Assembly (NCBI GenBank): GCA_934277495.1
Contig: CAKQUI010000002.1
Span: 1 to 46,428 of the forward strand
Direction of reading: 5' to 3'
Source of the DNA: an uncultured Clostridia bacterium
GTDB taxonomy: Bacteria > Bacillota > Clostridia > Peptostreptococcales > Anaerovoracaceae
DNA: 46,428 nt
The stretch's first letter is position 1, and each line of letters begins with the position of its first letter. The position numbers were made by a program, and so were the translations under genes. Below the pieces are notes generated by a model, which made no database searches, had not been told where the DNA came from, and saw nothing but the letters and a program-made list of their open reading frames with translations. This document shows, piece by piece, positions 89 through 24,966 of this stretch.

Positions 89-2278
89 TCAGGGTAAAAA
101 CCTGTTCCGGTTTCTGAATTCGATCTGCTTCATAAACTCCATCACGCTTTTTTCATCCCACTGTTGTGGTCTTTGGGGCTCCGTGAGATCTCCAAGCAGT
201 TCCGGACGATATTGCAACAGAAACGATGCGCGCATATTGGAATATTCTGTCTGGTATGATTCATCCGATGGACTTACTTCGGTATACCCCAGTTCCCTGA
301 CCACATAATCTGCCACCTCATCCACAGAGTGCGAATCTGCCCTCAGAAATTTGATTACACGCTTTCGCCGGAAGTCATACATGCTCTTTTCTATCTTCTG
401 TCTTAACGTTTTCTTTTTGTCTTTTCCGCTGCCGCTGTTCTTGTCTTTTTCTTTTTTGAGAGCGGCCAGTTTTTTCTCAGCTGCTGTAAGCACATCATAA
501 TTCGATACAAGCTTCCTGCCGCAGTCTGTCAACGCATCGTATGCTGTCCGGGCTGCCCTGATGTCATCTGCGGAATCCAGGGTTATCCTGCCTAAAGCTG
601 CGATCATATCTGTGACTTCTGCAGCAGCTTTTTTATCGCTGACCGTTGGGATATCGACCATATCGTATAATGGCGATTCTCCTTTTGCAAATAGCTCATA
701 TGCTGTCAGTGCATTGTAGGCCTGCTCTGTAGCTGACGCATCCGCTCCTCCCCCTGCCGCTGCACTGAATCCGCTGCCGGGTATATACCTGCTCATGAGG
801 CCGTCTACAGCACTCATGCCGTCCTTTATGAACCTGCTGTCTGATGCCGGATCTATCCCAATAGATGTCAGAGCTATTATGACCTGAGCACTCGAGCCTG
901 TATCCTTATCCGGACCGAATGTCCCGTCGCTGCACTGGACTTTCGAGAGATATTCCAGCGCCTTGTCTGCTGTCTTTTTCACTGAGGCGTCTTTTTTGTG
1001 ATATGGCGCCAGTGCCTGCAGCGCTACGGCTGTGATCCCGGCGTCAGGACTGCCGTCCGCTGTCCATCCGCCACTGTTTTCTGCTGCGCCTGTGAGGTAT
1101 TTTACGAGTGCATCTCTGGAAGTCTGTTTTCTGCCCTGTTCTGCATCCGGTATACTGTACTGTTTTGAATCAAGTGCAATAAGCACCATCGCAGCACTTC
1201 TGACGCCGCCTTCAAGGACCGCATCAAGATCTGACACATCTTTAAGAAGATCTCTGCCGCCTGCATCTGACACATCACGTCCTGCAGCTGTTAGTCCCAG
1301 TATCAGCCGTGCTGTTTCACATATGTCTGAAGATCCTTCGCTCATCATTATATAGTTGACGGCGTTGAGATAATAGCCGTCTGTCTCTATATCTCTGATT
1401 TGTCCTGATCTGATACGGCCTATCACAGACCATTCGCCGCCGACATCACCCACTGAAGGTATCCCGGCTTCAGATATCACCTTTCCTGCATCATCGTGAG
1501 CCTGCTTCACATCATTTGACACGCCTGACGCCGCCTTCATCTGCTCCGCTGATAAAGTTTCTGGCAGTGACACATCTTCATTTTCTTCTGGTGAGCTTTC
1601 ATCATCTTCCGGTTCCGGGATCACTGCTGTATCCTCACCGTCTGCCTGAACATCGCTGTCTGTCACGGTGCTGTCATCATTTGTATCTGCATTTTCGTAC
1701 TTCTGTACTGTCTCGCTGGTGCCTGCTGCATCGTCTTTTTCATCGCTGTTTTTTCCTGTGCTGATGCCTCCTGCTGCATTTTCGGTTCCATTATCTTCAC
1801 GGTCTGATGTATCATCAGAAGATGTATCTGCAACACCTGAATAATACAGCCTTATCCGGTCTCCGTCTGACAGATATCCTGCTGACTGGACATCGCCGGG
1901 GCTGATTTCTGTATCAGTACCGTTCATGCTCAGTTTCCACCGGCATCCGCTGCCTGCATCCCCGTCTGATATACCTGCCGCCGCTGTGACTCTGCTGCTT
2001 TTGAAAGAAATATCTTTATGTTCATCACTGAAAGCTTTTTTCAGTATATCTTCGATGGTCTCATCATGGGTCGCTGCGATATCACGCTCCATCAGTCTGC
2101 CCTGCCATGGTGCGCCGCTGCCGCTGTCCCATATATCGTTTTCTACAGTCAGATGTATGTGTATCGTCTCGTCTTCGTCCGCATGGACTGGGGATACTGC
2201 ACCGCACATAATCATCATCACGCACGATATATATATGATATATTTTTTTATCCTCCTGCTGTATATGCCTGTTTTCAA
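89..2278 (-). CDS. Secreted two-domain protein: DUF4430-like beta domain plus alpha/alpha-barrel (intrinsic-factor-like)
   Basis: I chose a TTG start at 2278. It follows GGAGG by 9 nt and gives a textbook signal peptide (two Arg and two Lys, a hydrophobic core, cleavage after VHA). The frame stays open to a GTG at 2377, but that start has no ribosome site and would read through a perfect hairpin. The mature 729-aa precursor has a DUF4430-like beta domain (about residues 43-146, ending LSDGDRIRLYYS), an acidic Ser/Asp/Glu linker (150-250), and an alpha/alpha-barrel of prenyltransferase/squalene-cyclase type repeats (280-545, with GGWTADG and DGTFGPD turns). A helical motif (AYDALTD), a Lys-rich stretch and an unrecognised conserved-looking tail of about 95 residues follow. 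Barrel plus DUF4430 is the fold pair of animal intrinsic factor and transcobalamin. The barrel is paralogous to the lipoprotein at 18756-19706: both share GIDP, RFI, DG and ATEQA blocks. It is the second gene behind the riboswitch near 3.8 kb. B12 binding is inference. Confidence 0.85.
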   Translation of the reverse strand: MKTGIYSRRIKKYIIYISCVMMIMCGAVSPVHADEDETIHIHLTVENDIWDSGSGAPWQGRLMERDIAATHDETIEDILKKAFSDEHKDISFKSSRVTAAAGISDGDAGSGCRWKLSMNGTDTEISPGDVQSAGYLSDGDRIRLYYSGVADTSSDDTSDREDNGTENAAGGISTGKNSDEKDDAAGTSETVQKYENADTNDDSTVTDSDVQADGEDTAVIPEPEDDESSPEENEDVSLPETLSAEQMKAASGVSNDVKQAHDDAGKVISEAGIPSVGDVGGEWSVIGRIRSGQIRDIETDGYYLNAVNYIMMSEGSSDICETARLILGLTAAGRDVSDAGGRDLLKDVSDLDAVLEGGVRSAAMVLIALDSKQYSIPDAEQGRKQTSRDALVKYLTGAAENSGGWTADGSPDAGITAVALQALAPYHKKDASVKKTADKALEYLSKVQCSDGTFGPDKDTGSSAQVIIALTSIGIDPASDSRFIKDGMSAVDGLMSRYIPGSGFSAAAGGGADASATEQAYNALTAYELFAKGESPLYDMVDIPTVSDKKAAAEVTDMIAALGRITLDSADDIRAARTAYDALTDCGRKLVSNYDVLTAAEKKLAALKKEKDKNSGSGKDKKKTLRQKIEKSMYDFRRKRVIKFLRADSHSVDEVADYVVRELGYTEVSPSDESYQTEYSNMRASFLLQYRPELLGDLTEPQRPQQWDEKSVMEFMKQIEFRNRNRFLP

Positions 2279-2336
2279 AACCGGAAAACCTCCCTGATGG
2301 CCTGACGCCCCTTGTTTTTCTGCTGTACGCATGTCA

Positions 2337-2361
2337 CGATATCCGCAGCCTGCGGATATCG
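2337..2361 (-). repeat. Perfect 11-bp inverted repeat in the intergenic leader
   Basis: The arms at 2337-2347 and 2351-2361 are perfectly complementary around a 3-nt loop (core ATCCGCA/TGCGGAT). The hairpin sits between the FecR-DUF4430 gene and the TTG start at 2278. No T-run follows on either strand, so it is not a typical intrinsic terminator. It may be an mRNA processing or stabilising hairpin. A related core occurs in the hairpin at 19814-19845. Confidence 0.6.
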
Positions 2362-2413
2362 CCTGCACTGACTTCACGATGCCGTCGGTCTGTGCCGTAT
2401 CTGCATCTTGTCT

Positions 2414-3652
2414 TTATGTATCGCTGCCGTATCCTTTGCATGTATATTCCCATACGATTGATTCGCCGCCCTTGAGCTTATAACTGCTGCATCCGTAATT
2501 AGGAGCCCAGCCGTTCACCTTGTATATCCATCCTGACTGGCTGCCGCAGTCGAACTCGTAGAGATTGTTTATGCCTTCGATATAATTCGTGCCGTAACCC
2601 GGTGAATACGCATATTCCAGCTGTATGCCTGTAGCATCGCAGGCCCTTTTCAGCACATCGAACACGCTCTCGCCGTCCTTGAACTCGACGGTGGATGCTG
2701 CCAGTATCACTCCGTTGTCAGGCACATATCTTTCTTTTCCTTTGGTCAGGTCTTTCTTGTTTTTAAGTATAGTGCCGCATTTTATCGAGATCGTGCAGGT
2801 CTTCACACTGCTTCCGCCTGATGAAGAGGAACCTGAGTCTCCACTCTTGCCGGATGACCCTGACGAGGCTGAGGAAGAAGAGCTTCCTTCAGAAGATGAC
2901 TCGCCTGCCGCTATCACCTTTTCTTCGTGGATCTTGCGTTCTTTTTCTGCTGTCTTTATCTCTTTCTCACGGTCGGCAACGACTTTGTCAAGATCCTTGC
3001 TGCTGAAACACAGATCGAAATCCTTTCCTGCAGCCTTTGCCTGCTTTATGTTGAAATCATTCAGCGATGATGCTTCAAGACGGTTTGAAGATATCTTGCC
3101 GCCGGTTACCGTTAGCTCCCTGCCTGCGCCGGCAGTGCTGCTTTTTTTGCCATTGGTCAGTTTCACCTCGCCGCTGAAGACTCTGACGCTTACCGAACCC
3201 TTGCGGACGTCTGCTGCAAATACGCTGCCGTCAGTCTCCACGATGCATCCGCCGCCTTCGAGACTGGTGAATCCGCTGCTGTTTTTCAGAGCTATGAAAG
3301 ATTCGCCTTCGGACAGTGTCACGGAAAGTTTCCCATCATCCGACTGTGAATATCCCATCTCGGAGTTCTCTGAAAGTGCATATGAGTCGTGTCCTTTAAG
3401 GATAATGACTGATGAGCCTGATTTTGTTTCAATTATATCTCCGGATTTCAGTGATGTATCTTCATCCAGTGTATACGCTACTCCGCTGCGTTCCACATTC
3501 ACGATACCTGTGACTTCTCCGGCTCTGACGTCGCTGCTGTCTGTGAACCAGCCTTTCAGATAGCCTGCTGTCACCACTCCGCACGCTGCTATGACAACTA
3601 CCAGAGCTACCATCACCATATTGAGTATTTTACATTTTGACTTTTTCTGCAT
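2414..3652 (-). CDS. Membrane-anchored FecR-like/DUF4430 protein
   Basis: This 412-aa protein starts with one transmembrane segment (about residues 11-31, no clear cleavage site), so it probably sits outside the membrane, anchored at its N terminus. Residues 40-165 resemble a FecR beta-helix domain (SGDIIETKSGSS followed by repeating short strands ending VFSGEVKL). A charged helical stretch (205-245) and a Ser/Gly linker (250-285) lead to a C-terminal DUF4430 domain (about 310-405) with the hallmarks SVFDVLKRA, GWIYKVNGWAPN and KGGESIVWEYTC. DUF4430 is the family related to the transcobalamin beta domain. The ribosome site AGGAG lies 7 nt before the ATG and just past the riboswitch terminator, so this is the first gene under that switch. 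The FecR assignment is by pattern and less certain than DUF4430. Confidence 0.85.
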   Translation of the reverse strand: MQKKSKCKILNMVMVALVVVIAACGVVTAGYLKGWFTDSSDVRAGEVTGIVNVERSGVAYTLDEDTSLKSGDIIETKSGSSVIILKGHDSYALSENSEMGYSQSDDGKLSVTLSEGESFIALKNSSGFTSLEGGGCIVETDGSVFAADVRKGSVSVRVFSGEVKLTNGKKSSTAGAGRELTVTGGKISSNRLEASSLNDFNIKQAKAAGKDFDLCFSSKDLDKVVADREKEIKTAEKERKIHEEKVIAAGESSSEGSSSSSASSGSSGKSGDSGSSSSGGSSVKTCTISIKCGTILKNKKDLTKGKERYVPDNGVILAASTVEFKDGESVFDVLKRACDATGIQLEYAYSPGYGTNYIEGINNLYEFDCGSQSGWIYKVNGWAPNYGCSSYKLKGGESIVWEYTCKGYGSDT

Positions 3653-3705: not shown

Positions 3706-3785
3706 CTGTGTGACCATATACACCGGGCTCAGTTTCGATCATCATGATCATGCAGCCTGCCTCGGTGATATTTCCTGCATAATAA

Positions 3786-3905
3786 AACACTGCCTGACCT
3801 CAGAAGACAAATCTGCTTCAGATCCCGGATATGTATACCTGCTTTATCATAATGATAGCACAGCTGCTGAGACACAGTGCCGGCCTTCCACCGTCTTCCA
3901 CAAGA
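3786..3905 (-). ncRNA. Cobalamin riboswitch-like aptamer (compact form)
   Basis: On the minus strand the leader carries the cobalamin core pattern: GGAAG, then GGTGGAA, CCGGCACTG, and GCAGCTGTG (3899 down to 3859). The L5 loop TCTCAG (about 3866-3872) is complementary to the loop of a hairpin at 3791-3809 containing CTGAGG, which is the L5-L13 kissing interaction known in this riboswitch class. A GGTATAC block near 3832-3840 could be the B12-box or J6/3 region. I do not find the GCCACTG...GGGAAGGC block of full-length class I switches, so this may be a compact variant. It shares a near-identical 17-nt stretch with the leader at 24701-24905. An intrinsic terminator follows. A covariance search (RF00174 and the variant families) would settle the class. 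Confidence 0.8.
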
Positions 3906-3938
3906 TCCTTTCTGAATGTATTTTATTCCGATGTTTTA

Positions 3939-4116: not shown

Positions 4117-7100
4117 TCAGTAATTGTACGTTGTGTACACCCTTACTTTTTTCACAGAGCTGTATGCGCCGTATACTTTCTTGCCGTCTACAGTCCTGTA
4201 AGCTCTTACCTTGTAGTAGTAGTTCTTTCCTTTTTTGAGGTTCTTGTTCACGAATTTCACTGTGCTGCCGCTCTTTATAGTCTTGACGCACTTGAATCCG
4301 CCTGACTTCTTAGTGGAACGGTATATCTGATATCCGCTTGCACCTTTCACCTTGCCGTATGTCACAGTTACTTTCGCTTTGCCTGTCCTCAGGCTGAGTT
4401 TTCCTGTTTTGCCCAGGGAAGTCTTCACTGATCTTACAGCTGAGTATTTGCTGTATACATCGTTTCCGTTTATCTTAGCGTATGCTCTTACCTTGTAGTA
4501 GTAAGTTTTTCCTGTCTTCAGGCTGCTGTCGGCTGCCGATGTCTTCGTCACTGACGCTGTCTTCTTGAATCCGCTGTTCTTTGAAGTAGATCTGTATACT
4601 TCATAGCCGTCTGCGTTCGCTACAGCCTTCCATGTGATCTTTGCTGTCTTGTAGTCTGATGCTTTCACTGTCGCTGCAGTCGCTGCTGCTGCAAACTCTT
4701 CTGCCTTGAGCTCTTCATCTGTCTTCACTGCTGCCAGTTCTTTCTTCGCAGCTTCCAGGACCTTCGCAACGCTGTCTGCATCTTCAGCTGCTATTATATC
4801 AGACTGTCCGTTCACTATGATTGACATGATCTTCAGCTGTTCTGCAAGTCTGTATGCAGATGTGTCTGCTATCGTGCCCTTCAGTTCTTTAAGAGCGCTG
4901 TTCTTTGCAGTTTCCAGAGCTTTTGCAGCTTCTTTTTCTGCCTTGTCTTTTTCCTGCTGTTCCTTCAGCTTGTCCAGTTCAGCCTGTCTGTCGGCATCTG
5001 CCTTGTCCTTGTCGGCCTTTTCCTGTGCAGCTTTTTCTTTGTCAGCCTTTGTTTCGATCTTGCTGATATCCTGCTTTGCTTTTGCGATTATAGTGTCGAT
5101 GTCATCCGCATCCTCTGCCGATTTCATCTGACGCTTAGCGTCCTTGATGATGAGGTTCACCTGATCAAGCTCATCCTGATCGTAATCTGAATCCGATATC
5201 ATACTTCCCAGCTGGTCTGCAGCTACTGCTTTTCTCACTTCGAAGAGGCCAGTATCATCGCTCTGCTTAGTGTATGTAACGTAGTAGTTTTTCTTAGTCT
5301 TGCCGTCTTCTGCAGTCACTTCCACTCTTACGGCTGTAGTATCTTTGCCTGAACCGAAGTAGATAGCGTATCTGTTATGCCCTGAACTGCTGGCTGTGAC
5401 TTTGATCTCTTTTGTATTCTTGTCGCTGACACGGTTGTCGTCTATGCCGTATAATGCATAGACCTTTACGCTGGCACTCTTGTGTCTGGCATCAGGCCAG
5501 AGGTTTTCGAAAGTCCTTGAAGAACCTGCGTTGTACATAGTATACACATCCTTGTCAGGCGTGAATGTCGGGCTCAGCGTCAGGAAGCTGCTGTAACCGT
5601 TGTATTCATTGACCTGAAGTGAACTGAGAGCAGCATCGTCGGATTTTGATCTGATGCTTATAGTGTATGTCCTGCTGTACTCGCCATTGGTTACTTTGAT
5701 CACAGCCTCTGCCGTTCCGTCAGCTTTGAGATCTACCTTTGCTGTGTCTGATGTCAGCTTTTCATCGTTCACAGTTACGCTCGCACCTTCTGCCGCTGCA
5801 AGTCTGATGTCTACTGACTTTGTTCCGGAATCGACCACAGCCTCATATGATGTCGTCCCTGATTTGAATTCCTTGTTAAGCTCAGGTTCTCCGCCTGTGA
5901 GCTCCATGCTTTCAAGGTATGCATTGTTGTTTTCAAGAGCGAATATGTTGCATGAATCGTTCTTGTAGTATATAGTGCCGTCCTCGCCGCAGATAAGACT
6001 TGTGATGCAGTACTGTGAATATCCGTCTGCGTCATATATCTCTGTCAGCTCTGCACCTTCTGCCTTGGTGTTGTCAGGCTTTGTCTTCACCATGGAAACA
6101 CCGCCCGGAGTCATGTTGTATGTGGAATAAAGGTAGATATATCCGGTGGATTCTTCGTATGCTGTTGACAGCAGTACCGATGACTGCGGATAACCCTTGA
6201 GACCTACAGCGTAGTCCATTTTCAGTGTGTCGGCTTCCGCAACCACCAGGTTGCCCTTGGAGCCTGTCGCTGATATTCCTGAACCTGTTGCAAAGTATAC
6301 CTTGCCTTTGTAAACTACAGGGGTACTTGTTGACTGTGCATTGTAGTTCTCATCCTTGAGATCTGACAGCTTTCCTGTCTTTTCATCTATTGCAGCTGAG
6401 AACAGGTGACCAGCTTTTGTAGTACCGTATACTCTGCCTGATTCCTTGTCGTATGCGATAGTTGATCTCTGGTCTCCTGTGAGATCGCAGTCGCTTATGA
6501 CTTCACCTGTGTATTTGTTTACTGAATAGAGTTTTGATGCCTGGTTGTAGCTCGAAGTACCATCATCTGTTCCGAATACCAGTGTATCACCGATTGCCAC
6601 CGAGCCTGCCCAGTAAAATCCACCTGTGTGAGTGAATCTCCATGTAGCAAGCTTCGACTCATCAGTCTTCTCTGTATCTTCATCTGTGACTGACAGGCAC
6701 ACATAGTTGGCGTCTTTTGTTTCAGAATTCCAGAAACCTGTGTAGATGTACCCGTCGCTGTAAGTGATCGGCGAAAGCGACTGTCCGCCGAGAGGATCTT
6801 TGTATACCCATACTGATTCAAGAGTGTCAGCGTTCACTGCCTGGATAGTGCCGCCTGCCAGCGGGCAGAAGATCATGCCGTCTGCATATGTCATAGGTGT
6901 GTATCCCCAGTTAGTGGAACCTACGAGCTGTCCTTCCTTTTCTACTTCACCTGTTTTAGGATCCAGCTGGTATATCTTGCTTCCTACTATCGTCATGACT
7001 TTGCCTTTTACGATTATCTGGATACAAGGTGCTGCCGACCAGCCTGTGCCGTACTTCTTCGCCCATCTGAGGTTAGTGGACTTTGCTGTTATCGGCGTCT

Positions 7101-7530
7101 TTGCATTTGTGATAGCCATGTTCACATCGCTGTTACGGAAATTCTTCCATTCAGCCTTGATGTTCTTGTCTATCTTGCTGTTTTCAGCAGCCTTTTCAAG
7201 CTTCACTTCCTTGACTGTATCCTTGTCAAGGCTGAGCTCGCCGCTCTGCCCTATATAGCCTGTCTTTGTAACAGTGTATGTATAAGTCTCTCCCGATGAA
7301 AGTGGATATGTTCCATCAGCATCTGCTTCGACTTTTTCGCCGGAAGCATTTTCTACCCTTACGATGGAATCTGAAGGATCCGCCTTCAGGGTCAGTTTGA
7401 CTGTATCTGCCTGTGTGACAGCACTGCCGCTGTCATCTCCTGCTGCAAACACCGCTGATGTGCTGCCGCCGAAGATGGAGACTGCCATCATCAGCGTCAG
7501 CATCAGCGCAACGAGTTTTCTTTTTTTCAT
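4117..7530 (-). CDS. Secreted PQQ-like beta-propeller protein with FN3 tail
   Basis: The 1137-aa product has a clear signal peptide (MKKRK, hydrophobic core, cleavage near FAAG). The order of domains is: a small PEGA-like beta domain (45-95); a PQQ-type beta-propeller (about 125-540) with repeated [19 protein letters not shown] and GYIYTGFWN segments; one or two cadherin-like beta-sandwich modules (about 545-760); a Lys/Glu/Ala-rich coiled coil (about 770-940); and two FN3-like modules ending YYYKVRAY. There is no LPXTG, SLH or transmembrane anchor, so how it stays on the cell is unclear. The propeller is closely paralogous to that of the neighbour 16 nt upstream. The ribosome site AAAGGAG precedes the ATG. 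It is the last gene of the long operon. BtuG, the high-affinity B12 binder of Bacteroides, is also a beta-propeller. That parallel is suggestive only, and I cannot see the ligand. Confidence 0.85.
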
Positions 7531-12229: not shown

Positions 12230-12258
12230 TCCGGTGTCCTCCTTTTTCTTCTTTCTTC

Positions 12259-15859: not shown

Positions 15860-16824
15860 CGTTTCTTACCTGTATCTGCAGCTGTATGTCCCTGTCTTAT
15901 CTGCGGCACCGGCTCCATTTTCAGGATCTCAGCCAGTATGTCTTCAGCTCTGCGCTCTGCTATCCTCGCCTTCGGGCTCACTATTATCCTGTGACCGCAG
16001 ACATCACTGAACACAGCGCTGACGTCTTCCGGTATCACGAAATCCCTGCCTGTGACGAAAGCGTAGGCCTTCGCCATCCTGCACAGGGCCAGTGTTCCTC
16101 TGGGACTCACGCCCAGCTGTATCATTTCATTCCTTCTCGTGGCGTCTGCCAGCCTTGCTATATATTCATAGACAGGATCTGCGATATATACCGCATCTGT
16201 CTCTTCCTGCATCTTTATAAGTCGTTCCTTGTCAGTCACCTGATTTATCTCGCTGAGAGGATCCCTGCGATGTCTGTCCTTGAGAATGTTTATCTGACTT
16301 TTGAGATCAGGGTAGCCCATAGCCAGCTTTACCATGAATCTGTCCAGCTGCGAATCCGGTAGCATCTGCGTGCCTGCAGAGCCTGTCGGGTTCTGGGTCG
16401 CCAGCACGATGAAAGGCTCCGGAAGCTTTCTCGTCACGCCGTCCACTGTGGTCTGACGCTCCTCCATCACCTCCAGCAGCGCTGACTGTGTCTTGCTGGA
16501 AGTCCTGTTTATCTCGTCTGCCAGAAGCAGGTTCGTCATTGCTGCTCCAGGCTTGTATACGAACTGTCCTGTATGTTTCTCATATACTGAAAAGCCGGTG
16601 ATATCCGACGGCACGCTGTCTGCTGTGAACTGCACTCTCCTGTGATCCAGTCCCAGGGTCTTGCTGAACGCCAGCACCAGTGTGGTCTTGCCCACCCCCG
16701 GTACGTCTTCCAGCAGCACATGACCTTTTGACAGCACTGCCATGAACACCTTGGCTATGATGAGATCCTTGCCTATGATGACTTTCCTGACCTCGTTCAG
16801 TACCTGCATTACTTCTTTATGCAT
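15856..16824 (-). CDS. MoxR-family AAA+ ATPase
   Basis: I start it at the ATG at 16824 (322 aa, MHKEVMQ), which has AGGAG 10 nt upstream. A GTG start at 16851 is possible but lacks a site. The protein shows Walker A PGVGKTT, Walker B LLLADEINR, the sensor region VLATQNPTGSAGT and the arginine-finger context PDSQLDRFMVK. These are typical of MoxR ATPases, cytoplasmic chaperone-like enzymes that act with vWA/DUF58 partners. It sits 28 nt after the DUF4430 gene and overlaps DUF58 by 4 bp. In context it probably powers maturation or assembly of the secreted or membrane proteins encoded around it, which is an inference from the conserved trio. Confidence 0.93.
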   Translation of the reverse strand: MHKEVMQVLNEVRKVIIGKDLIIAKVFMAVLSKGHVLLEDVPGVGKTTLVLAFSKTLGLDHRRVQFTADSVPSDITGFSVYEKHTGQFVYKPGAAMTNLLLADEINRTSSKTQSALLEVMEERQTTVDGVTRKLPEPFIVLATQNPTGSAGTQMLPDSQLDRFMVKLAMGYPDLKSQINILKDRHRRDPLSEINQVTDKERLIKMQEETDAVYIADPVYEYIARLADATRRNEMIQLGVSPRGTLALCRMAKAYAFVTGRDFVIPEDVSAVFSDVCGHRIIVSPKARIAERRAEDILAEILKMEPVPQIRQGHTAADTGKKR

Positions 16825-16852
16825 CAGTATATATCTCCTTTTCATCCTCACA

Positions 16853-18775
16853 TCAGTATGTCTTTTTGAAAGTGCTGCCCTGATATGAGCCTCCTATATC
16901 CATCCCGTATGCCAGAGTGTATCTCACCTTTACTATGGATCCGTCGTGCAGATCCACAGCTGACGCACTCTCCGATATGAACTTGCCGTCCACGAGGATT
17001 ATCCATCCTGAGCCCTGGGTGTAGTCCTTTTCACCCAGACTGTTCATGGATCGCTGCGGATCGTCACGGCTGCCCTGCCAGGTTATGCCGTGGTCGTCTA
17101 TCTCATCCTTGAGGGCCTCCGGTATGTTTGCTTTCTTTCCTATACCGCTCCTGCTTATGCCGCTGAGATAGAATCCCTGGTCGGTGCTGCCTGAGCTGAT
17201 ACATCCGAATCCTCTGGATTCCAGGACTCTCACGATGACTTTCGCAGCATTGTCACCTGCCAGAAGATCTGTCGTGGCTCCTGATACCAGGCTGCCCAGT
17301 CCGATGACATTGGCGTCCATGTTCACTGTGACCGTACCGATCTTTTCGCTGTCATCTGGTCTGACGTAATTCACAGTATATGTGAACTCCTTCACCCTGC
17401 CGTCGTCGTCTGTTATGATGATACGGATCGTATTTTTCCCTTCGCTGAAATTCAGCTTGTACGTCACATACGGGTTCGTGTCTCTGACGATCTGGTGGCT
17501 GCCGTTGAGGTATACCTCCACACCGTCATAGTATATCTTCTTTCCTTTGTAGTCCTTCGCTGCAAGCTCCAGTGTGTAAGGGTTCTTCTTTTTCACAGTC
17601 TGACCGTCGCTGATATTGATATGCGTCAGTGACGGCTCTGTCTCCGGCGTGGCGACAGGTACATATTTTATCTTGTATGTGGCAGAATCCTCTTCTTTGC
17701 CGTCGGTGGCTTTCAGCCTGATGGTATTGTACGCCTTCTCTCCCTGAGGGACGAGCTGTACATCGTATACGCCGTTTTCGCCTTTTACCTGCTTGTTATT
17801 GAGTGTCACAGTGAACTCTGTCTTCGCACTGCCGCCCACTGCTTCGGCCCTGAAGGTGAAGTCCGGCTTCACTGCCTTTACGGTCTGGTCCTTCAGGTCG
17901 GTCTCGATGTGCAGTCCCTTAGGAGGCTGGTAATATACTTTGCAGGTTTCCTTCAGCTTGTGTTTCGAGTCATACTCTGCCGATATCGTGAAGACATTCT
18001 CGCCTTTTTCCAGTTCAGTCTCATATGAGCCGTCTGTCCTGGAAAGTTCCCTGCCGTCATGTTCCACGATCACATCAACGTCATCTTCTCCGAAGGCTGC
18101 CGATGCGGTGAAGCCGAGATATGCCGAATCGACTTTCATGCCGTCTTTCAGCGACGTCCTTATGACGAGATGGCGTGTATCTACATTTATCGTATAGTTC
18201 TTGTAAGGGGATATCTCCTGGCCGCTGCTGCTCTCGTAAAGCACCTGGACTCTGACAGCATTTTCGCCTTCGCTGAGATGTATCGTGAAATCGGTCCTGG
18301 CGTCGTTTATACTGTCGGTCATCCTGCCGTCCACGAATATCATGGTCTTTTTCGGAGTCAGCGATGGGATCTTGTGCTTTATGGAAAAATCATAATCCCT
18401 GGTCGTCACTGTTTCACCGTCTTTTATCGTGGTAGTGAAATATACGGTGTCAGTCTTTCCTTTGTTTTTCTTTCCTTTGCCCTTCGACTTGCTGCTGTCG
18501 TTTTTCCCCTGTTTTTTGCTGCTTTTATTTTTTTTATCTTCTTTTTTGTCGTCTTTTCTGGTCTTGTTTTCCTTCTTCGTGCTGTCTTTGACTTTGTCGG
18601 AAACCTTTAGACTGTTTCCTTCGGCGGTCAGCATCAGAGAACTGTCTGTTTTCTGAGCTGTCCTGTTTTCAGGCTCCGTGCGCTGCTGTGAAAAAGCCGC
18701 CCAGCTTATACCTGACAGTACCAGCAGGATAACAAGTGTGAAAACAAGATGACGCTTAGTTCCCCGCAGCTTCAT
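16853..18775 (-). CDS. Membrane-anchored protein with beta-sandwich repeats and C-terminal DUF4430-like domain
   Basis: I start it at the ATG at 18775 (640 aa), preceded by AAGGA. This leaves a 20-bp overlap with the end of the lipoprotein gene and places a single transmembrane segment at residues 9-27. An upstream in-frame start at 18820 would bury that segment. A strongly basic Lys-rich stretch (about 55-105) follows, which may cross or bind the anionic cell wall. Next come four beta-sandwich repeats of 80-95 residues (110-475), each opening near a DG turn and closing with a GEN(x)I/V strand. The C-terminal 160 residues form a DUF4430-like domain with GSGWIILVDG and LHDGSIVKVRYTLAYG. It follows the barrel lipoprotein directly, so barrel and beta domain here are on separate, coupled genes, whereas they are fused in the gene at 89-2278. 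Confidence 0.85.
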   Translation of the reverse strand: MKLRGTKRHLVFTLVILLVLSGISWAAFSQQRTEPENRTAQKTDSSLMLTAEGNSLKVSDKVKDSTKKENKTRKDDKKEDKKNKSSKKQGKNDSSKSKGKGKKNKGKTDTVYFTTTIKDGETVTTRDYDFSIKHKIPSLTPKKTMIFVDGRMTDSINDARTDFTIHLSEGENAVRVQVLYESSSGQEISPYKNYTINVDTRHLVIRTSLKDGMKVDSAYLGFTASAAFGEDDVDVIVEHDGRELSRTDGSYETELEKGENVFTISAEYDSKHKLKETCKVYYQPPKGLHIETDLKDQTVKAVKPDFTFRAEAVGGSAKTEFTVTLNNKQVKGENGVYDVQLVPQGEKAYNTIRLKATDGKEEDSATYKIKYVPVATPETEPSLTHINISDGQTVKKKNPYTLELAAKDYKGKKIYYDGVEVYLNGSHQIVRDTNPYVTYKLNFSEGKNTIRIIITDDDGRVKEFTYTVNYVRPDDSEKIGTVTVNMDANVIGLGSLVSGATTDLLAGDNAAKVIVRVLESRGFGCISSGSTDQGFYLSGISRSGIGKKANIPEALKDEIDDHGITWQGSRDDPQRSMNSLGEKDYTQGSGWIILVDGKFISESASAVDLHDGSIVKVRYTLAYGMDIGGSYQGSTFKKTY

Positions 18776-19706
18776 AAAGCATACGTCCTTCATCTGCCAG
18801 AGCGACAGCATCCAGCGCACAAAGCGCCTGCTCTGTTGCCATCATATCGCTGTCTGAACCTTCCTCATGAGCGAACATATCATCATCCGTCATATATCCG
18901 GCAAGAGCATCCACCAGTGTCCTGCCGTCTGTGATGAAGCGCTGGTCTGTCAGCGGGTCGATACCGGCAGCTGTCAGCGCTATTATAGTCTGTGATATGC
19001 TTTCCGAGCTGTCATAGCCTCCACCTTCCTGCTGCAGATCCGCCATTACGTCCACAGCTCTGTCGATGACTTTTTTCACCTTTGCATCATCTTTGTAATA
19101 TGACAGTGCCTGCACAGTCATCGCCGTTATATCTATATACGGGCTGCCCTCCGGACCTTCAAGAGCGAATCCGCCGCCCTTTATCTCCTGGCTCAGTATA
19201 TAGTCGATATACTTGTCTGAACTGTCCAGCACTGGCTCATACCCTGCCATGTTCGCCGCTATGAGTGCGAACGCAGGTCCGTTTATACCCTGTTTTTTTA
19301 CGAAGTCAAGATCCTTCGCAGGCTTCATCAGATCATACCCTGCTACATCTGTCGGATCCTTTCCTATGCAGCTCGCTGCTATGCTGAGCCTTGCATATTC
19401 TGTATATTTTGTTGAAGACAGATCGCCTTTCATTTTTTTCACGTATTCGCATACGCGGTCATAGTATCTGTCGTAATAGTCTTTTTCAGTTTCGATGCCG
19501 CTCTTCGACAGGGCGATCACCGTCCAGTCGCCTCCGACGGCTCCTGTCTTTGCTTCCTTTGACTGGCTGTAAAGTGCCTTTGCGACCTGATCCCGCATAG
19601 ATACAGGATCATCTTTGCTGCTGCCGCATGAACTCATTATCATCAGCAGTATCAGCACCACCGCAAGAACAGCCGGAAAGCCTCTTTTTCGAAATTCCTG
19701 TTTCAT
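18756..19706 (-). CDS. Alpha/alpha-barrel (prenyltransferase-like repeat) lipoprotein
   Basis: I favour the ATG at 19706 (316 aa). It gives a 27-residue lipoprotein-type signal (MKQEFRKRGF, hydrophobic core, MSSC). ATGs at 19724, 19736 and 19811 are in frame, and the one at 19736 also has an AAGGA close by. After the presumed lipidated Cys come helical repeats of prenyltransferase/squalene-cyclase type with glycine-rich turns (GGGFALEGPEG, GGGYDSSES). It ends with GIDPLTDQRFITDG and ATEQALCALDA. The same blocks occur in the fused barrel protein at 89-2278, so the two are paralogues. The fold is that of the alpha domain of intrinsic factor and transcobalamin. The last 20 bp overlap the next gene, which supplies a DUF4430-like beta domain. 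Binding of a corrinoid at the cell surface is inferred from context. Confidence 0.85.
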   Translation of the reverse strand: MKQEFRKRGFPAVLAVVLILLMIMSSCGSSKDDPVSMRDQVAKALYSQSKEAKTGAVGGDWTVIALSKSGIETEKDYYDRYYDRVCEYVKKMKGDLSSTKYTEYARLSIAASCIGKDPTDVAGYDLMKPAKDLDFVKKQGINGPAFALIAANMAGYEPVLDSSDKYIDYILSQEIKGGGFALEGPEGSPYIDITAMTVQALSYYKDDAKVKKVIDRAVDVMADLQQEGGGYDSSESISQTIIALTAAGIDPLTDQRFITDGRTLVDALAGYMTDDDMFAHEEGSDSDMMATEQALCALDAVALADEGRMLYEAAGN

Positions 19707-19813
19707 TGCTTTATTCCCTTTCATCCTTTTTTTCATCCTTTTCCTTTTTGTATGATGATCCCCGTGCCGCCTCAAATGCTTCCCCAGGCTTCCCCTTTGC
19801 CTTTCATTCATTT

Positions 19814-19871: not shown

Positions 19872-22800
19872 CTATCTGGTCTTTACTGACTTTGCTTTTG
19901 ACCAGTCTGAATAGTATGTACCATTTCCGGCTTTTGCATATGTCCTCACCTGAACATAGTATTTTTTGTTTGCCTTTAGCTTCTTCACGGCTTTGGACGT
20001 TACAGTGTTCTTTTTGACTGTCACTGTCTTTGCCTTGCTCATCTTGCTGCTTGTCGCATACCTGATCTGATATCCGGATGTTTTAGTGCTCTGTTTCTTC
20101 CACTTTACTGTGAACTGTTTTTTGCCCTTTGTGACTTTGGATATCGTCGTGCCCTCAGGTACGATCCTGAAAGTCTTCACTTTCGTTCCTGCATATTCGC
20201 CTTTTCCTGTCACAGCCACCTTTGCAGTGCCTATGTTCTTGTTTGCTGAATATGCTACAGTGTAGTCTGTACCCTTTTTGAGAGTCTTTCCGTAGTATGC
20301 AGCTTTCACTTCAGGCTTCTTTGCTTTGCCGCTGTATGATGTGCTGCTGTATGAAAGTGTTATCTTCACTGCATCGAACTTAGTCTTTGCCAGCTCATCT
20401 TTGATGTTCAGGTTTTCATACTTCATTTCAGCGTTCACCAGCTTCTGGTAATTGCTCACCTGTTCCTTTTCGCTGTCGGAAAGCTTGTCGTATGCCTTTC
20501 TTGCAGCATCCAGCTTGTCTTTACTTGATGCATCCACAGTACCGATGGCATCTATGGCTTCGATGGCAGCCTTCACATCCAGCTTGCTGATCTCGCTGTT
20601 CAGCTTGTCTGCATTGAAGACATTTTCCTTGTCGGCATCTGACAGTGCATCGTATGCTTTCTTTGCTGCCAGCAGATCGCTTTCGCTTTCAGCTGATTCG
20701 ATCATAGCTGCTACATCTGCGGCTGCGTTGTCTCCTGCTTTTGAAGTATGGATGTAGTAGATCACAGGGTTGGATTTTCCTTCCTGTACTATCACACGGA
20801 TGATGCCTTTGTCAGGAAGACCTTCGAAAGATCTCTCTGATGTTCTCTCATTGTTGATGTAGATGTTGGTATCATCATCTGCTGCCTTGACGCTGACTTT
20901 GTATCCATCCTTTTCAGGGACCTGTACATAGTATACGTCCTTGTCTTTCGAAAGTTTTATGTCTGTGCCTGCAACAGTCAGTTTCTCAGGAGCTGCTGTA
21001 GTTCCGATGGATTCCTTTTCAGGAGTAGTCCTTACCATGGAGCTTATCTCAGCTGATTTTTCTCCGATAGCGCCTGCATTGATGAAGGAAGCTGTCTGCA
21101 CCTTCACATAGTGGAACTTCTTGTCCTTCACATCTACAGGATCGCCATTTTCATCTACTGCCCACTTCAGGTCGAAACCGTCTCCGTAACCGTCATAATC
21201 TTTCATGTACGGATTTCCTACAGGAGTAGTGAGAAGGTTGACGTCTTCACCTGTGCCTGCAACTGTCGATGAGTTCTTCTGTACGTCGAAGTATCCGAAG
21301 GCCGGCATTGCTGCGCTTCCTGCCTCTATACCGTCGCCTTTCCTGCCGCCTGCTCCGTACAGACGTGTACCTTTCACTGTTATCTGATCCTCAGTAGTCC
21401 AGTTGTAGAGAGGATAGAGGTTCTTCTTCGGCAGCTGGTAAGGAGCCCATCCTGTACCAAGGCTTCCGCCGTTGCCGTCGTTGTCCGAGTAGTCAGCTAT
21501 ATCGCTGTCTGATTTCTTGTATGTTACTTCGTAGTCCCATCTGCTTGTAGCATCGTAGTGTTCCGATCCTGCCAGGGAATACCATGTCTTGCCGTCCTCT
21601 GATACCAGTACGTTGCCCGGCTCTGAGAAGCTCTGTCCTCCGTTGGAGTTGCCGAATACGGTGAAATCAACGCCGTAAACATTGTTCGGATCATCTGTTA
21701 TCGGCTCGTCATAATAAAGTGTCATGTATCCGCCGAAGTTGCCCAGTGATACGCATGTATACCAGTTTCCTGCGTCCATGAATATCTTTTCAGGGAAGAG
21801 ACCGTAGATGCCCCAGCCTGTGTTGCCGCCGTTAGTGTACTGGCTGCCTATGCAAAGGTAATCTGTGATCTTGTCCGGCGTTCCTTTCAGCGTACCGTTC
21901 TTTGTACCTTTCTTGAACAGGTATAAAGTGTAGCTGTCTTCTACAGCGTTGCCGTCCTTGTCCGCATATGTCGCAAGGATGTACTGTGTTATCTGGTTGC
22001 CCTGATCCTTGAGCGGAGTATCTATAGTCAGTTCGTATACAGCATCGCCGTTTTCATCATCCTTTACTTTGGTCATCTTGTATGCGTCACTGGCAGTCCT
22101 GTTATTGTAAAGGGTGACATCCTTATCTGCTGTGATAGTCACAGTTGCTGTACCTGCTTCATGTGCCACCAGCGCTGCCATTGCTTTGGCGCCTTTTCTG
22201 TAGTTAGGTGTGCACTCCTTGCAGTTCTTGTCGAAAGCTGCCGATTTGATCACTGTCTTGTCGGAAACATCCGATGGAAGTTTTTCTACATCTATGGTGT
22301 ATACTTTTACGGCTTCGTTTGCGAACGGATCTTTGCCGTCTGCCTTGTCTGCTTTGTAGGCCTTGTCCGATACGCTCTTGAGCTGTATCTTAGTACCCTT
22401 GTCTGCACTGATCTTGAGTGCATCGGTAGTCACCGACTTGCTGCCTTCAGTCCATGTCTTTCCTTCGTCTGTGGAGTATGCGATATGGCCTGATACTGTG
22501 TCAGAAGTCTTTGCAGTGACTATGACGTCTTTCGCATCATCATAAAGATATGCTTTGTAGTCGTACCATGCTGAATTGAATCCCGGTCTTGTCTTTGTAT
22601 CTACAGTACCGTCAGAGTTCACTCTGTATAAAGCTCCCTCTGCATTTGAGCTTGTTGCTCCTGCAGGCTTGTATTTTTTCAGGGAATCCATCGCTCTTTC
22701 AGATGTCTTCAGCACAATTGAAGATATCTTCTCGTTGCTGGAATAGCCTGCTCTTACTTTGTATACATAATCTGTATAGTTCTTTTCATCTTCCAGAGAT

Positions 22801-24296
22801 GTCACTCTCAGTGTGAATGTGCTGTCTCCCGGCTCCAGTGCTACATTCGTCGTTTTTTCAGACTCCATAGCCTGAGCTTTTTCACCGTCTTTCAGTATCT
22901 CAGCCTTGACTTTTTCCTTGTCATATACGATACCAACGCCAATTTTCTGAGCACTTGTGCTTTCTTTGAGATAGAACTGGCGGTCAGCAGTGTCTGTCAC
23001 TCCCATGTAATGTGCAGTAGTGCTGCTCGTCGTTGTGCTGTTGAGATAATTTGATTCTGTTTTTACAACAGTCTTGCAGTCCTCGTCTGTATATACAGCA
23101 GGGCTTGTCGCAAGATACATCTTTTCAGGATATACTTTGCCTTTTTCTGCTACATTCACTTTGTATGTCGCCTTGCCCTCTGCAGTTTCTGCTGTGATCT
23201 TTGCCAGACCTGCCTTGACTGCAGTCACAAGACCCTTGTCGTCGATCTTTGCAACTTTGTCGTCTGAGCTTGTCCATGAAGTCACTTCTGCGTCTGTGTC
23301 AGCCTTGAGCTGTACTGTGGAACCTTCATTCACATATGTCTCCTCCGGAGTGCCTTCTGCATCCCTGATGAAGAAACCCTTTACAGTGATATCAGCAGAA
23401 GCCTTGTTCCATGAGTTGTACTTGTCCTGTACAGTCACCTTGCCGGTACCTGCCTTCACAGGATACATATATGAATTTTCGACTATTTTCAGTACGGACT
23501 CATCTTCTGATGAAACTTTGGTCATATTGTAGTCCCTGTACTGTGACGGATCCGGTATGACATAGTTGCCTGTCCTGTTTATAACACCGTTTTCAGGTAT
23601 CTGGATGTATGTCTTGCCGTACTCTGCATAACGTACATTAGTACCCAGAGCAGGAAGTATGTATACTCCAAATTCATCTTTAACTGAGCTGTTTACAGCA
23701 GATGCAGCTGTAAATTTGACATATTTTGTGCTCGTGATACCTGCAGGCACTGTAACTTTACCGTTGCTGCTTATAGTAACGCTGCTGTCGCTGCTGCTCC
23801 ATTTTACTTTCTTGCTTGCAGTTTCCGGCGTCACGCTGCCGACTTCAAGATAAAATGAAGTCTTGCTGCCGTCTGTGGCAAATACAGGCATATCTGATGA
23901 ATACCCATTTGCCATCACGACTTTGCTGTCATCTGCAGCCTTCACTGTGATCTTTTCAGGTGCAGTGCCTTCATATACAGTGACTACGCAAGTCGCCTCG
24001 GCGTCTCCGCATGTTGCTGTAACTGCAGCCATGCCCTTGCCGACAGCTGTCACTTTGCCGCTTTCTACTTTAGCTACTTTTTCATTTGAAGAGTCCCATG
24101 AAACACTGGCGTTGCTACCTGCCGGACTCACTGCTGCAGTGATCGTCTCAGTCTCGCCCTTTTCCAGTTCCAGGATCTTCGGGTTCACTTTGATGGATAC
24201 CTGAGTCGTATCGGCAAATACCGATGCACTGCTTCCAAGTACCATCACCGTGGTCACGACCAGCGTCGTTACCCATGTCAATAACTTGTTTTTCAA
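19872..24296 (-). CDS. Large secreted multidomain surface protein (Ig-like domains, central beta domain, FN3)
   Basis: The 1474-aa product begins with TTG at 24296, with AGGAG 9 nt before. It has a signal peptide cleaved near residue 28 (SVFA). Domains in order: bacterial Ig-like (Big_2) modules at about 31-110 and further Ig-like modules to about 385; beta-rich segments to about 800; a central domain (about 810-1090) with GVDFTVFGNSNGGQSFSEPG, WYSLAGSEHYD and VKVQTASFINAG; a helical pair with the AYDALSDADKE motif (1190-1300); an MBG-like beta module (1305-1380); and an FN3 module (1385-1474). From memory the central domain resembles one in Bacteroidota proteins annotated as cell surface protein, some of which lie near B12 receptor genes. 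That needs a search. It has no sortase motif. It is the first gene behind the riboswitch at 24.8 kb and probably a ligand-binding or scaffold protein. Confidence 0.85.
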   Translation of the reverse strand: MKNKLLTWVTTLVVTTVMVLGSSASVFADTTQVSIKVNPKILELEKGETETITAAVSPAGSNASVSWDSSNEKVAKVESGKVTAVGKGMAAVTATCGDAEATCVVTVYEGTAPEKITVKAADDSKVVMANGYSSDMPVFATDGSKTSFYLEVGSVTPETASKKVKWSSSDSSVTISSNGKVTVPAGITSTKYVKFTAASAVNSSVKDEFGVYILPALGTNVRYAEYGKTYIQIPENGVINRTGNYVIPDPSQYRDYNMTKVSSEDESVLKIVENSYMYPVKAGTGKVTVQDKYNSWNKASADITVKGFFIRDAEGTPEETYVNEGSTVQLKADTDAEVTSWTSSDDKVAKIDDKGLVTAVKAGLAKITAETAEGKATYKVNVAEKGKVYPEKMYLATSPAVYTDEDCKTVVKTESNYLNSTTTSSTTAHYMGVTDTADRQFYLKESTSAQKIGVGIVYDKEKVKAEILKDGEKAQAMESEKTTNVALEPGDSTFTLRVTSLEDEKNYTDYVYKVRAGYSSNEKISSIVLKTSERAMDSLKKYKPAGATSSNAEGALYRVNSDGTVDTKTRPGFNSAWYDYKAYLYDDAKDVIVTAKTSDTVSGHIAYSTDEGKTWTEGSKSVTTDALKISADKGTKIQLKSVSDKAYKADKADGKDPFANEAVKVYTIDVEKLPSDVSDKTVIKSAAFDKNCKECTPNYRKGAKAMAALVAHEAGTATVTITADKDVTLYNNRTASDAYKMTKVKDDENGDAVYELTIDTPLKDQGNQITQYILATYADKDGNAVEDSYTLYLFKKGTKNGTLKGTPDKITDYLCIGSQYTNGGNTGWGIYGLFPEKIFMDAGNWYTCVSLGNFGGYMTLYYDEPITDDPNNVYGVDFTVFGNSNGGQSFSEPGNVLVSEDGKTWYSLAGSEHYDATSRWDYEVTYKKSDSDIADYSDNDGNGGSLGTGWAPYQLPKKNLYPLYNWTTEDQITVKGTRLYGAGGRKGDGIEAGSAAMPAFGYFDVQKNSSTVAGTGEDVNLLTTPVGNPYMKDYDGYGDGFDLKWAVDENGDPVDVKDKKFHYVKVQTASFINAGAIGEKSAEISSMVRTTPEKESIGTTAAPEKLTVAGTDIKLSKDKDVYYVQVPEKDGYKVSVKAADDDTNIYINNERTSERSFEGLPDKGIIRVIVQEGKSNPVIYYIHTSKAGDNAAADVAAMIESAESESDLLAAKKAYDALSDADKENVFNADKLNSEISKLDVKAAIEAIDAIGTVDASSKDKLDAARKAYDKLSDSEKEQVSNYQKLVNAEMKYENLNIKDELAKTKFDAVKITLSYSSTSYSGKAKKPEVKAAYYGKTLKKGTDYTVAYSANKNIGTAKVAVTGKGEYAGTKVKTFRIVPEGTTISKVTKGKKQFTVKWKKQSTKTSGYQIRYATSSKMSKAKTVTVKKNTVTSKAVKKLKANKKYYVQVRTYAKAGNGTYYSDWSKAKSVKTR

Positions 24297-24301
24297 AATC
24301 T

Positions 24302-24502
24302 CTCACTCCTTCCTCATTTGAATCGAGAATAATGATGTGCTGACATATCCGGATGGTCTGCCATGCAAAAAACATTTATACACCTATTATTCTGCCTGCT
24401 TCACAGCAGCGCAGATAATATACATATTCCGTTTTCTGAATAATACCGTTTCCACTGTGTATGTACCGGTCCCACTGAATCATGAAACCCCCATACATAA
24501 GG
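24302..24502 (-). other. Leader between riboswitch terminators and first gene
   Basis: This stretch lies between the second terminator-like hairpin and the TTG start at 24296. Apart from the ribosome site AGGAG near 24305-24309 I see only a small hairpin (CTGCT/AGCAG near 24395-24410) and no coding frame or second promoter I would defend. Confidence 0.4.
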
Positions 24503-24547
24503 AAAACAGGGCAGATATCATGTATCTGATACTTTCTATCCGCCCTG
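24503..24547 (-). terminator. Second terminator-like hairpin in the riboswitch leader
   Basis: On the minus strand CAGGGCGGATA pairs with TATCTGCCCTG (11 bp, one G-U pair) across a 19-nt loop and is followed by TTTTCC. It lies about 20 nt past the strong terminator at 24566-24599. The T-run is short, so it may be a backup terminator or just a structured leader. Confidence 0.5.
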
Positions 24548-24565
24548 CGGATGAAAAGGCTGCTT

Positions 24566-24599
24566 AAAAAAAATAAGACACCCCGTTTCCGAGATGTCT
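24566..24599 (-). terminator. Intrinsic terminator of the first cobalamin riboswitch
   Basis: On the minus strand AGACATCTCG and CGGGGTGTCT form a 10-bp stem (two G-U pairs) capped by a GAAA loop and followed by TATTTTTTTT. It lies about 100 nt after the L13 hairpin and 270 nt before the first gene, as expected for the expression platform. Confidence 0.9.
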
Positions 24600-24700
24600 G
24601 TCATTACGATACATATATGTATTCCACACCTTTTGTATATATTCTTTCTATTTCAAAAACACATAGTTTTCATTAAATTGAAAAAATGTAAACAAAAAAC

Positions 24701-24905
24701 GTCTGCTTCACCTCAGAAAGCTAACTTCACGCCAGAAAACGCCGTATACCGACTCGACCATCATGCCCTCAGGAACGCCTTCCCAAAGCTTCTAAAGCTT
24801 CAGTGGCTGCACAGCTGCGTTATCATGCTGCAGCTTCATGCATGTCCTTCAGTAGATCACACGGTTGCTGAGACACAGTGCCGGACTCCGACCGGCTTCC
24901 AAATC
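24701..24905 (-). ncRNA. Cobalamin riboswitch (full-length class I-like)
   Basis: On the minus strand the leader contains the ordered cobalamin riboswitch signatures: GGAAGCCGGT and CCGGCACTG (24900-24875), L5 loop with TCTCAGCA (about 24866-24873), the GCCACTG...GGGAAGGC block at 24807-24777, a B12-box-like GAGTCGGTATACGGC at 24755-24741, and a hairpin at 24721-24705 (stem GCTT/AAGC) whose loop CTGAGG can pair with the L5 loop CTCAG. This loop pairing is the known ligand-dependent kissing interaction. A strong intrinsic terminator follows at 24566-24599, so B12 should shut off the downstream operon. The core is nearly identical to that of the leader at 3786-3905. Confidence 0.88.
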
Positions 24906-24936
24906 GTCTCTGACCAATTATTCAGATTTCGTGAAT

Positions 24937-24966
24937 ATAATACTCCCTTGTACTGTTGTTTGTCAA
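24937..24966 (-). promoter_or_regulatory. Sigma-A promoter of the long B12-regulated operon
   Basis: On the minus strand TTGACA (24966-24961) and TATTAT (24942-24937) are separated by 18 nt. The riboswitch core starts about 37 nt downstream of the -10 box. The layout matches the promoter at 3939-3968. Confidence 0.72.

Follow-up and report, generated by a model that had tools for sequence, protein, structure and literature searches.

The 46,428 nucleotides of DNA considered here (the window) carry at their left end a run of ten minus-strand genes, g1 to g10, which very probably form a system for the capture and import of cobamides in a probable Clostridia-class Gram-positive bacterium. In it, a trio of genes for a MoxR ATPase, a DUF58 protein and a transglutaminase-like protein would serve as an ATP-driven envelope helper and not as a cross-linking enzyme. 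The initial annotation of this DNA had proposed an extracellular apparatus for corrinoid capture controlled by cobalamin riboswitches, and this prediction gains support from the co-location of the genes across genomes, from an energy-coupling factor (ECF) transporter resembling CbrT in relatives, from a corrinoid adenosyltransferase gene in two of their loci, and from a beta fold predicted to be that of intrinsic factor (IF) and transcobalamin (TC).

The genomic association was sought with g2, which encodes an alpha/alpha toroid (or barrel). In 391 genomes of one class, matches to g2 at E<=1e-10 were present in 103. The 33 genomes with the best barrel matches of this sample all contained DUF4430 (33/33), and 32/33 contained at least one cobalamin riboswitch of family RF00174. 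A riboswitch stood upstream of the best barrel, on the same strand and within 20 kb, in 23/33 genomes, 0.32 being expected, and in genomes with one single cobalamin riboswitch this was placed upstream of the best barrel in 14/18. Among the ten genomes without a riboswitch so placed, several barrels lie near a contig end and one genome is riboswitch-free. A first sample of 30 short loci, with flanks of up to 1.5 kb, had shown a riboswitch in one, and the link was seen only with whole-genome searches.

The features of the locus are as follows (aa, amino acids; all on the minus strand except the last).
24722..24940, minus strand: leader 1, aptamer of a cobalamin riboswitch, ahead of g1 (RF00174)
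19872..24296, minus strand: g1, 1474 aa, with signal peptide (by eye), Big_2 repeats, a BtuH-family domain and C-terminal fn3 (Pfam; phmmer match to the BtuG1 H-domain)
21027..21899, minus strand: BtuH-family domain of g1, residues about 800-1090 (profile A1 against the PDB)
18756..19811, minus strand: g2, an alpha/alpha toroid of 351 aa that may be a lipoprotein, with the signal judged by eye (Pfam below cut-off; homologs; profile)
16853..18820, minus strand: g3, 655 aa, with N-terminal membrane anchor (by eye), immunoglobulin (Ig)-like domains and a C-terminal DUF4430-like domain (Pfam below cut-off; a partner of g3 type accompanies many Cys-less trios)
15856..16851, minus strand: g4, 331 aa, MoxR AAA+ ATPase (AAA_3, 182 bits)
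14687..15859, minus strand: g5, 390 aa, DUF58 protein (DUF58, 22.7 bits; same place after MoxR in relatives)
12259..14673, minus strand: g6, 804 aa, transglutaminase-like protein with membrane segments (judged by eye) and Ser540 for the catalytic Cys (Transglut_core, 65.4 bits; residue alignments)
7547..12280, minus strand: g7, 1577 aa, cadherin-like, with PQQ_2/BamB-type propeller and fn3 (Pfam; profile A7)
4117..7530, minus strand: g8, 1137 aa, with PQQ_2 propeller, cadherin-like and fn3-like parts (Pfam; profile A7)
3782..3921, minus strand: leader 2, a degenerate leader resembling a cobalamin riboswitch, ahead of g9 (RF01482 below gathering threshold; homology to leader 1)
2414..3652, minus strand: g9, 412 aa, with a membrane anchor (by eye) and a C-terminal DUF4430 domain (Pfam; predicted structure with Foldseek and VIA)
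428..2377, minus strand: native part of g10, about 650 aa, with DUF4430-like domain, linker and alpha/alpha toroid, truncated (905-aa homologs; predicted structure)
108..428, no strand assigned: foreign block, Roseburia faecis-like, the chimeric end of the open reading frame (ORF) at 89-2377 (nucleotide identity)

The ten ORFs fill 89-24296 in the order g1 to g8, leader 2, g9 and g10. Neighbours overlap or stand apart by no more than 60 bp, save for one gap of 464 bp, which lies before g9 and holds leader 2.

Twenty loci of relatives, selected for a riboswitch and a barrel on one contig, contained EcfA (18 loci), EcfS (17), EcfT (14), a BtuH domain (5), CobA/BtuR by Pfam (2) and a g7/g8-type propeller (1); their ORFs were chosen by a simple longest-ORF script, with which genes can be missed. 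The CobA/BtuR corrinoid adenosyltransferase genes lie within riboswitch-ECF-DUF4430 loci (L036:6073-6585 and L042:13095-13610). Alignments were made from 37 of the best 120 g2 homologs (A2), 47 of the best 120 g10 homologs (A5), 19/20 loci (A3 and A4; L035 had no picked g9-type ORF), 6 S-components (A6) and 3 propellers (A7). The best PDB match of the relatives' S-component profile was 6fnp_A (8.3e-21; next match 1.4e-4), and 6FNP was deposited as ECF-CbrT, a cobalamin transporter, according to the parts of PMC5997447 consulted; chain A is probably its S-component, judging by length and match. Orthologues of g9, which in 19 loci share 46-58% identity with it across the final 135 residues, are followed directly by EcfT in 12/20 loci and, in one more, with CobA in between. 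None of EcfT, EcfA or a CbrT-like EcfS is among the 29 proteins of the window that were scanned, and its sole ABC ATPase (43617-44441) is paired with an ABC-2 membrane protein. The ECF-CbrT system is matched by an S-component in the operons of relatives and differs in having no counterpart in the window as sequenced. The earlier statement that no transporter is present holds for the window as sequenced, but the absence may reflect the broken contig end, because the g9 orthologue so often stands directly before EcfT in relatives, and for the same reason g9 is likely the last station before the ECF transporter.

Cobalamin riboswitches in general allow transcription when B12 is short. Leader 1 scored 38.2 bits against RF00174 (gathering threshold 31.5; E=2.9e-6 when all 4227 Rfam families are searched over the entire window), and the top match of leader 2 was RF01482 at 20.0 bits, against a gathering threshold of 50 (E=0.32 in 601 bases, 0.14 in 271 bases). 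The covariance search that had been suggested as a check therefore upholds only the first of the two cobalamin-riboswitch-like leaders originally described, and the second keeps its place through homology to the first. Over a core of about 55 nt the two align with a local score of 56, compared with a maximum of 32 in 2000 dinucleotide shuffles, and they have in common an exact 17-mer (0.02 matches expected), no third copy of which occurs in the window even when up to two mismatches are allowed. Leader 2 fails as a stand-alone riboswitch call, yet is homologous to leader 1. Both leaders were also compared pairwise by sequence with 20 riboswitches of relatives. Only that of L038 exceeded every one of 300 shuffles with each leader, and the others fell within or near the shuffle range, a result that gives no help for leader 2. 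RF01482 had matches in 10 of the 33 genomes and exceeded its cut-off in 1. Sub-threshold RF00174 matches (26-28 bits) resembling leader 2 were seen in two genomes at the start of the operon's last large gene (G391:C1:346390-346444 and G233:C2:578563-578617).

The candidate binders begin with g1. The profile of its domain matched 8blw_B (8.3e-46) and 7biz_A (9.7e-35) in the PDB and nothing beyond these at E<=0.1, and phmmer found the H-domain of BtuG1. The real Bacteroides parallel of the locus, overlooked in the initial annotation, appears to be this BtuH domain. Set beside BtuH2 and the BtuG1 H-domain (PMC8941943 and PMC10404256, parts consulted), g1 has in common with them the family, control of the locus by a riboswitch and the two contacts to the nucleotide loop (Gln333 and Asn399 of BtuH2, Q819 and N883 in g1); it differs in its Gram-positive origin, in being embedded in a Big_2/fn3 protein and in not keeping the corrin-ring contacts (His476, Tyr510, Trp511 and Trp577 of BtuH2). 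Homologs of btuH had previously been reported in three Firmicutes species, in one of them near an ECF-like transporter (PMC8941943, 2022, parts consulted).

The DUF4430 domain of g9 scored 69.5 bits with Pfam, against a cut-off of 23.8, and those of g3 (21.1 bits) and g10 (18.8 bits) fell under it; of the four DUF4430 or DUF4430-like domains first claimed, the fourth had no Pfam match at E<=0.1. In the AlphaFold2 (AF2) model of g9, a helix (53-64) is followed by strands 68-73 and 78-84, that is, a beta-grasp with the hairpin directly after the helix, and the top structural matches of the domain model with Foldseek and VIA were all TC, IF or haptocorrin (HC). The domain is accordingly one with a predicted IF/TC beta-domain fold. 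The link to the animal proteins came by fold alone, since DUF4430 sequence profiles, from full-length or trimmed alignments, gave nothing relevant among animal proteins in the PDB. The next fold match of g9 after IF, TC and HC was PDB 3u7z (Ruminococcus gnavus RUMGNA_00854), which is labelled as putative metal-binding and may be an unrecognised corrinoid binder.

The toroids are less distinctive. For g2, the Prenyltrans match (22.1 bits) was below the Pfam cut-off, 284 homologs were found at E<=0.001, and the toroid sequence profile matched squalene-hopene cyclases and their relatives in the PDB, IF and TC being absent from the matches. The Pfam barrel match of g10 was likewise weak and below cut-off; its AF2 model unites in one protein a predicted DUF4430-like beta domain (about 70-180) and an alpha/alpha toroid (about 282-576). 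The two alpha/alpha barrels of the first description are thus weak by Pfam and are carried by the g10 model and the g2 homologs. Against the PDB, the toroid model had IF and TC near the top by Foldseek, but under terpene cyclases by VIA, and the designation of an intrinsic-factor-like barrel was dropped. By these models the toroid appears to resemble terpene cyclases at least as much as intrinsic factor, and a specific likeness to IF/TC is confined to the DUF4430 domain, so that the parallel with intrinsic factor originally drawn is kept for the predicted g9 fold and was not kept for the barrel. Compared with IF, TC and HC, the predicted likeness also extends to the fusion of a DUF4430-like domain and a toroid in g10, and the differences are that g10 has the reverse order (beta before alpha), that the parts are split over proteins in g2, g3 and g9, and that the toroid does not appear specifically IF-like.

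The two beta-propeller genes were confirmed, PQQ_2 being above the Pfam cut-off in both g7 and g8. The suggested likeness to BtuG of Bacteroides, a beta-propeller in a B12 locus, found no sign in sequence comparison: at E<=1, profile A7 (three sequences) matched BamB, pyrroloquinoline quinone (PQQ) enzymes and designed propellers, BtuG was not listed, and an identification of g7 or g8 as BtuG was not supported. Single large proteins in two other loci unite a g7/g8-type propeller with DUF4430-type domains (L033:13435-17421, with SLH as well, and L112:5054-12000), and these fusions appear to be physical links of the propeller with IF-like parts.

That the corrin-ring contacts of BtuH2 are not kept in g1 weighs against corrinoid capture and would suit a B12-regulated surface system whose binders hold another ligand, for example a different metal-tetrapyrrole, cobalt, or a B12-carrying host glycoprotein (such as intrinsic factor or haptocorrin). 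The same direction is indicated by the Ig, fn3 and cadherin-like repeats, which suit protein or glycan binding, by the metal-binding label of 3u7z, and by the diverse ligands possible for SLBB domains, a point raised by a reviewer in PMC1796856 (parts consulted). However, the partner ECF S-component matches the ECF-CbrT entry best, CobA is present in 2/20 loci, and BtuH as well as IF/TC belong to families that bind B12, which makes another ligand improbable.

The trio consists of three adjacent same-strand genes with the domains of a cassette: AAA_3 in g4, which also matches bpMoxR (PF20030; 41.1 against 27 bits), DUF58 in g5, just under its cut-off of 23.4 bits, and Transglut_core in g6. PF20030 is the MoxR of MoxR-vWA-beta-propeller systems. 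The trio is tightly set within the operon, with a gap of 1 bp between g3 and MoxR and overlaps between MoxR and DUF58 and between the transglutaminase gene and g7. An impression from the first 20 loci that the trio is specific to the window was overturned by trio loci in other genomes. Of the MoxR proteins most like g4 in the 391 genomes, those with E-value ranks 1, 2, 4, 6 and 7 (G391, G233, G369, G296 and G281) are adjacent to a barrel, as are rank 14 (G251) and, more distantly related, that of G319; ranks 3, 5 and 8-13 are not adjacent to a listed barrel match. In a tree, the MoxR of the window groups with four toroid-linked MoxR proteins (support 97/95), and taken together the linked proteins do not form a single clade. 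One locus (L076) has the order EcfT-EcfA-EcfS-DUF4430-g3 type-toroid-MoxR-DUF58-transglutaminase-large protein, and another (L078) g3 type-toroid-MoxR-DUF58-transglutaminase-propeller, preceded by a riboswitch match below threshold (28.5 bits); the toroid adjoins MoxR in both, whereas the window has toroid-g3-MoxR. In L110 (G319:C43:21178-23228), three cobalamin riboswitches stand in a row before a run of a more distant MoxR, DUF58, ECF, DUF4430 and toroid, and the 441-aa ORF at the place of the transglutaminase has no transglutaminase motif.

MoxR-DUF58-transglutaminase cassettes are a known family (examples are L082-L086, L088 and L113-L116). The trio shares their gene order and differs in its setting in cobalamin-riboswitch loci and in the replacement of the catalytic Cys of the triad, which in g6 is Ser540. 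Among the best 120 g6 homologs (P0241-P0360) this site is Ser in 111, Asp in 8 and Ala in 1, and Cys in none. Of the g6 matches found in the class sample, the top seven (E<=5.4e-49) are without Cys and 10/10 readable weaker ones have it. A further search, of three orders with g6 alone, gave 24 new loci, of which 23 are Cys-less; the other (G789) keeps Cys, is without capture genes and was moved to the Cys-bearing group, so that the Cys-less set comprises 7 class-sample loci and 23 new ones. The trio does recur in such loci, but because the catalytic Cys is Ser in g6, the proposed assembly of the apparatus is unlikely to proceed by transglutaminase cross-linking. His is kept in every aligned row (the best 120 homologs and the later loci) and an acidic third site in every row of the 120, as would be expected if the Ser/Asp protein were still an enzyme that uses Ser as nucleophile and covalently installs fn3-rich surface proteins. 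This is very unlikely: a site that may be Ser or Asp (singly Asn or Ala) argues for relaxed catalysis, and Asp cannot serve as nucleophile in the manner of a transglutaminase.

The company of the Cys-less genes bears on whether the trio is an ordinary envelope cassette that is co-transcribed by chance and plays no part in the uptake of corrinoids. Capture genes (one or more of toroid, DUF4430, g3 type and propeller) lie near 24/30 Cys-less loci and 0/11 Cys-bearing ones, and an above-threshold cobalamin-clan riboswitch precedes the transglutaminase gene by up to 20 kb on its own strand in 15/30 Cys-less and 0/15 Cys-bearing loci. Since the 30 Cys-less loci share descent, Fisher values calculated from such counts are not probabilities for independent samples. 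Capture genes were scored by propeller alone in L152 and by a g3-type match alone in L155 and L156 (the latter weak, 3e-8). The Cys-bearing totals differ in that G295, G013, G181 and G243 lacked 20-kb context; G295, one of 11 weaker class-sample matches, had no readable ORF and was counted as Cys-type among the 15. For the Cys-less riboswitch count, whole genomes were used for some loci, L163 and L164 included, and the fetched region only for G596, G880, G799, G975, G809, G794, G782, G847 and G865. A check of the fetched stretches for opposite-strand genes between riboswitch and transglutaminase found one (L159), and co-transcription is not shown for the distant pairs in G296, G281, G892, G980 and G814. 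That Cys-bearing trios are without capture genes in all 11 loci with context fetched fits an ordinary cassette. So do 5/30 Cys-less trios with neither capture genes nor upstream riboswitch, which join the corrin-ring contacts not kept in g1 as points against the proposed system: L150, L160, L161 and L163 have neither, and G077, cut by its contig, has neither feature and no RF00174 in its genome. However, capture genes do accompany most Cys-less trios, a cobalamin-clan riboswitch stands directly before MoxR in L153, L154, L155 and L157, and L141 (105.6 bits) and L149 (97.2 bits) have riboswitch, EcfT-A-S, DUF4430, trio, toroid, g3 type and propeller on one strand. A chance neighbour is thus an unlikely reading of the trio, and an envelope helper of corrinoid uptake is preferred. 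A paper considered as precedent, with a transglutaminase-like gene and riboswitches (PMC12452182), was set aside, the riboswitches being of the c-di-GMP type in the parts consulted. No link of MoxR or transglutaminase with B12 was found in print within the open-licence PMC literature.

The left end of the contig is broken. Window positions 108-428 are identical at 315/322 positions (98%) to Roseburia faecis M72, in whose genome no DUF4430 match was found at E<=0.001. The closest full-length g10 homologs (P0122-P0125) have 905 aa and are 44-45% identical, and the two that were read have a different C-terminal sequence with a membrane anchor at the end. Native g10 therefore stops near base 428, and the contig end appears to be chimeric through assembly or to carry an insertion, the ORF at 89-2377 being a fusion. 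The ten genes attributed to the leaders are all there as ORFs, the last of them chimeric. The foreign bases invite the view that assembly made a chimera of the entire locus, with an unreal gene order. This is extremely unlikely, for the trio stands beside toroid and g3 type in independent genomes (L076-L080, L142, L146 and L158), in L078 with a g7-type propeller after it, with the limit that the toroid there adjoins MoxR and in the window g3 intervenes.

To the right of the operon, 25074-29647 and 29788-46427 hold a divergent run of aminotransferase, glycosyltransferase, ATP-grasp ligase and acyltransferase genes, followed by YfhO, NDP-sugar genes, several CDP-glycerol transferases, an IspD-like gene and an ABC-2 exporter. 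These are wall glycan or teichoic genes, unrelated to the operon.

Burroughs et al. (2007; PMC1796856, parts consulted) had predicted that low-GC Gram-positives scavenge B12 with proteins that combine SLBB and toroid domains, and had described fusions to propellers and CbiO/CbiQ as neighbours. The transcobalamin C-terminal SLBB domain of that paper is, by our own equation, DUF4430. In the parts consulted, those loci resemble the present one in joining the transcobalamin-clade SLBB domain with a toroid, whichever of the two comes first, in fusions to Ig domains and propellers, in SLBB proteins that occur in pairs, and in CbiO/CbiQ-like neighbours; riboswitch, BtuH domain, CbrT-type S-component and MoxR-DUF58-Cys-less transglutaminase are unmentioned in the same parts, in which these terms were not searched. 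The locus is a variation on the B12-scavenging loci predicted in 2007, and the trio with its Cys-less transglutaminase is the part that was not found in the open-licence literature.

The proposed system would work as follows. When B12 is short, the riboswitches would permit expression of secreted and membrane-tethered binders that gather corrinoids in the wall, namely the BtuH domain of g1, the toroid g2 with the DUF4430 proteins g3 and g9, and the fused g10. Membrane-anchored g9 would pass the corrinoid to a CbrT-type ECF transporter, which here has probably been cut off with the broken end of the contig. The trio, presumably with the transglutaminase fold outside, DUF58 in the membrane and the ATPase in the cytosol (by eye and family knowledge), would place, hold or unload the binders as an ATP-driven helper with a dead transglutaminase fold. 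A bolder version, which we consider speculative and improbable, would make the trio a counterpart of TonB-type energised unloading: MoxR, acting via DUF58 and the dead transglutaminase-like protein, would free corrinoid from ultra-tight BtuH or IF-like binders for the CbrT-type transporter, with the Cys-less transglutaminase as a protein-binding arm devoid of chemistry.

As far as the literature searched shows, extracellular B12 capture by Gram-positives has been little tested, the intrinsic-factor-like system having been predicted in 2007. Since this locus brings a cobalamin riboswitch together with a beta domain of the IF/TC type and a BtuH domain, to which relatives add a CbrT-like transporter, that prediction becomes directly testable. 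The locus also offers a physiological setting for the Cys-less transglutaminase-like family and for the adjoining MoxR-DUF58 pair. If it were true that the trio powers the hand-over from very tight binders, this would explain how such bacteria release B12 from their own traps without TonB.

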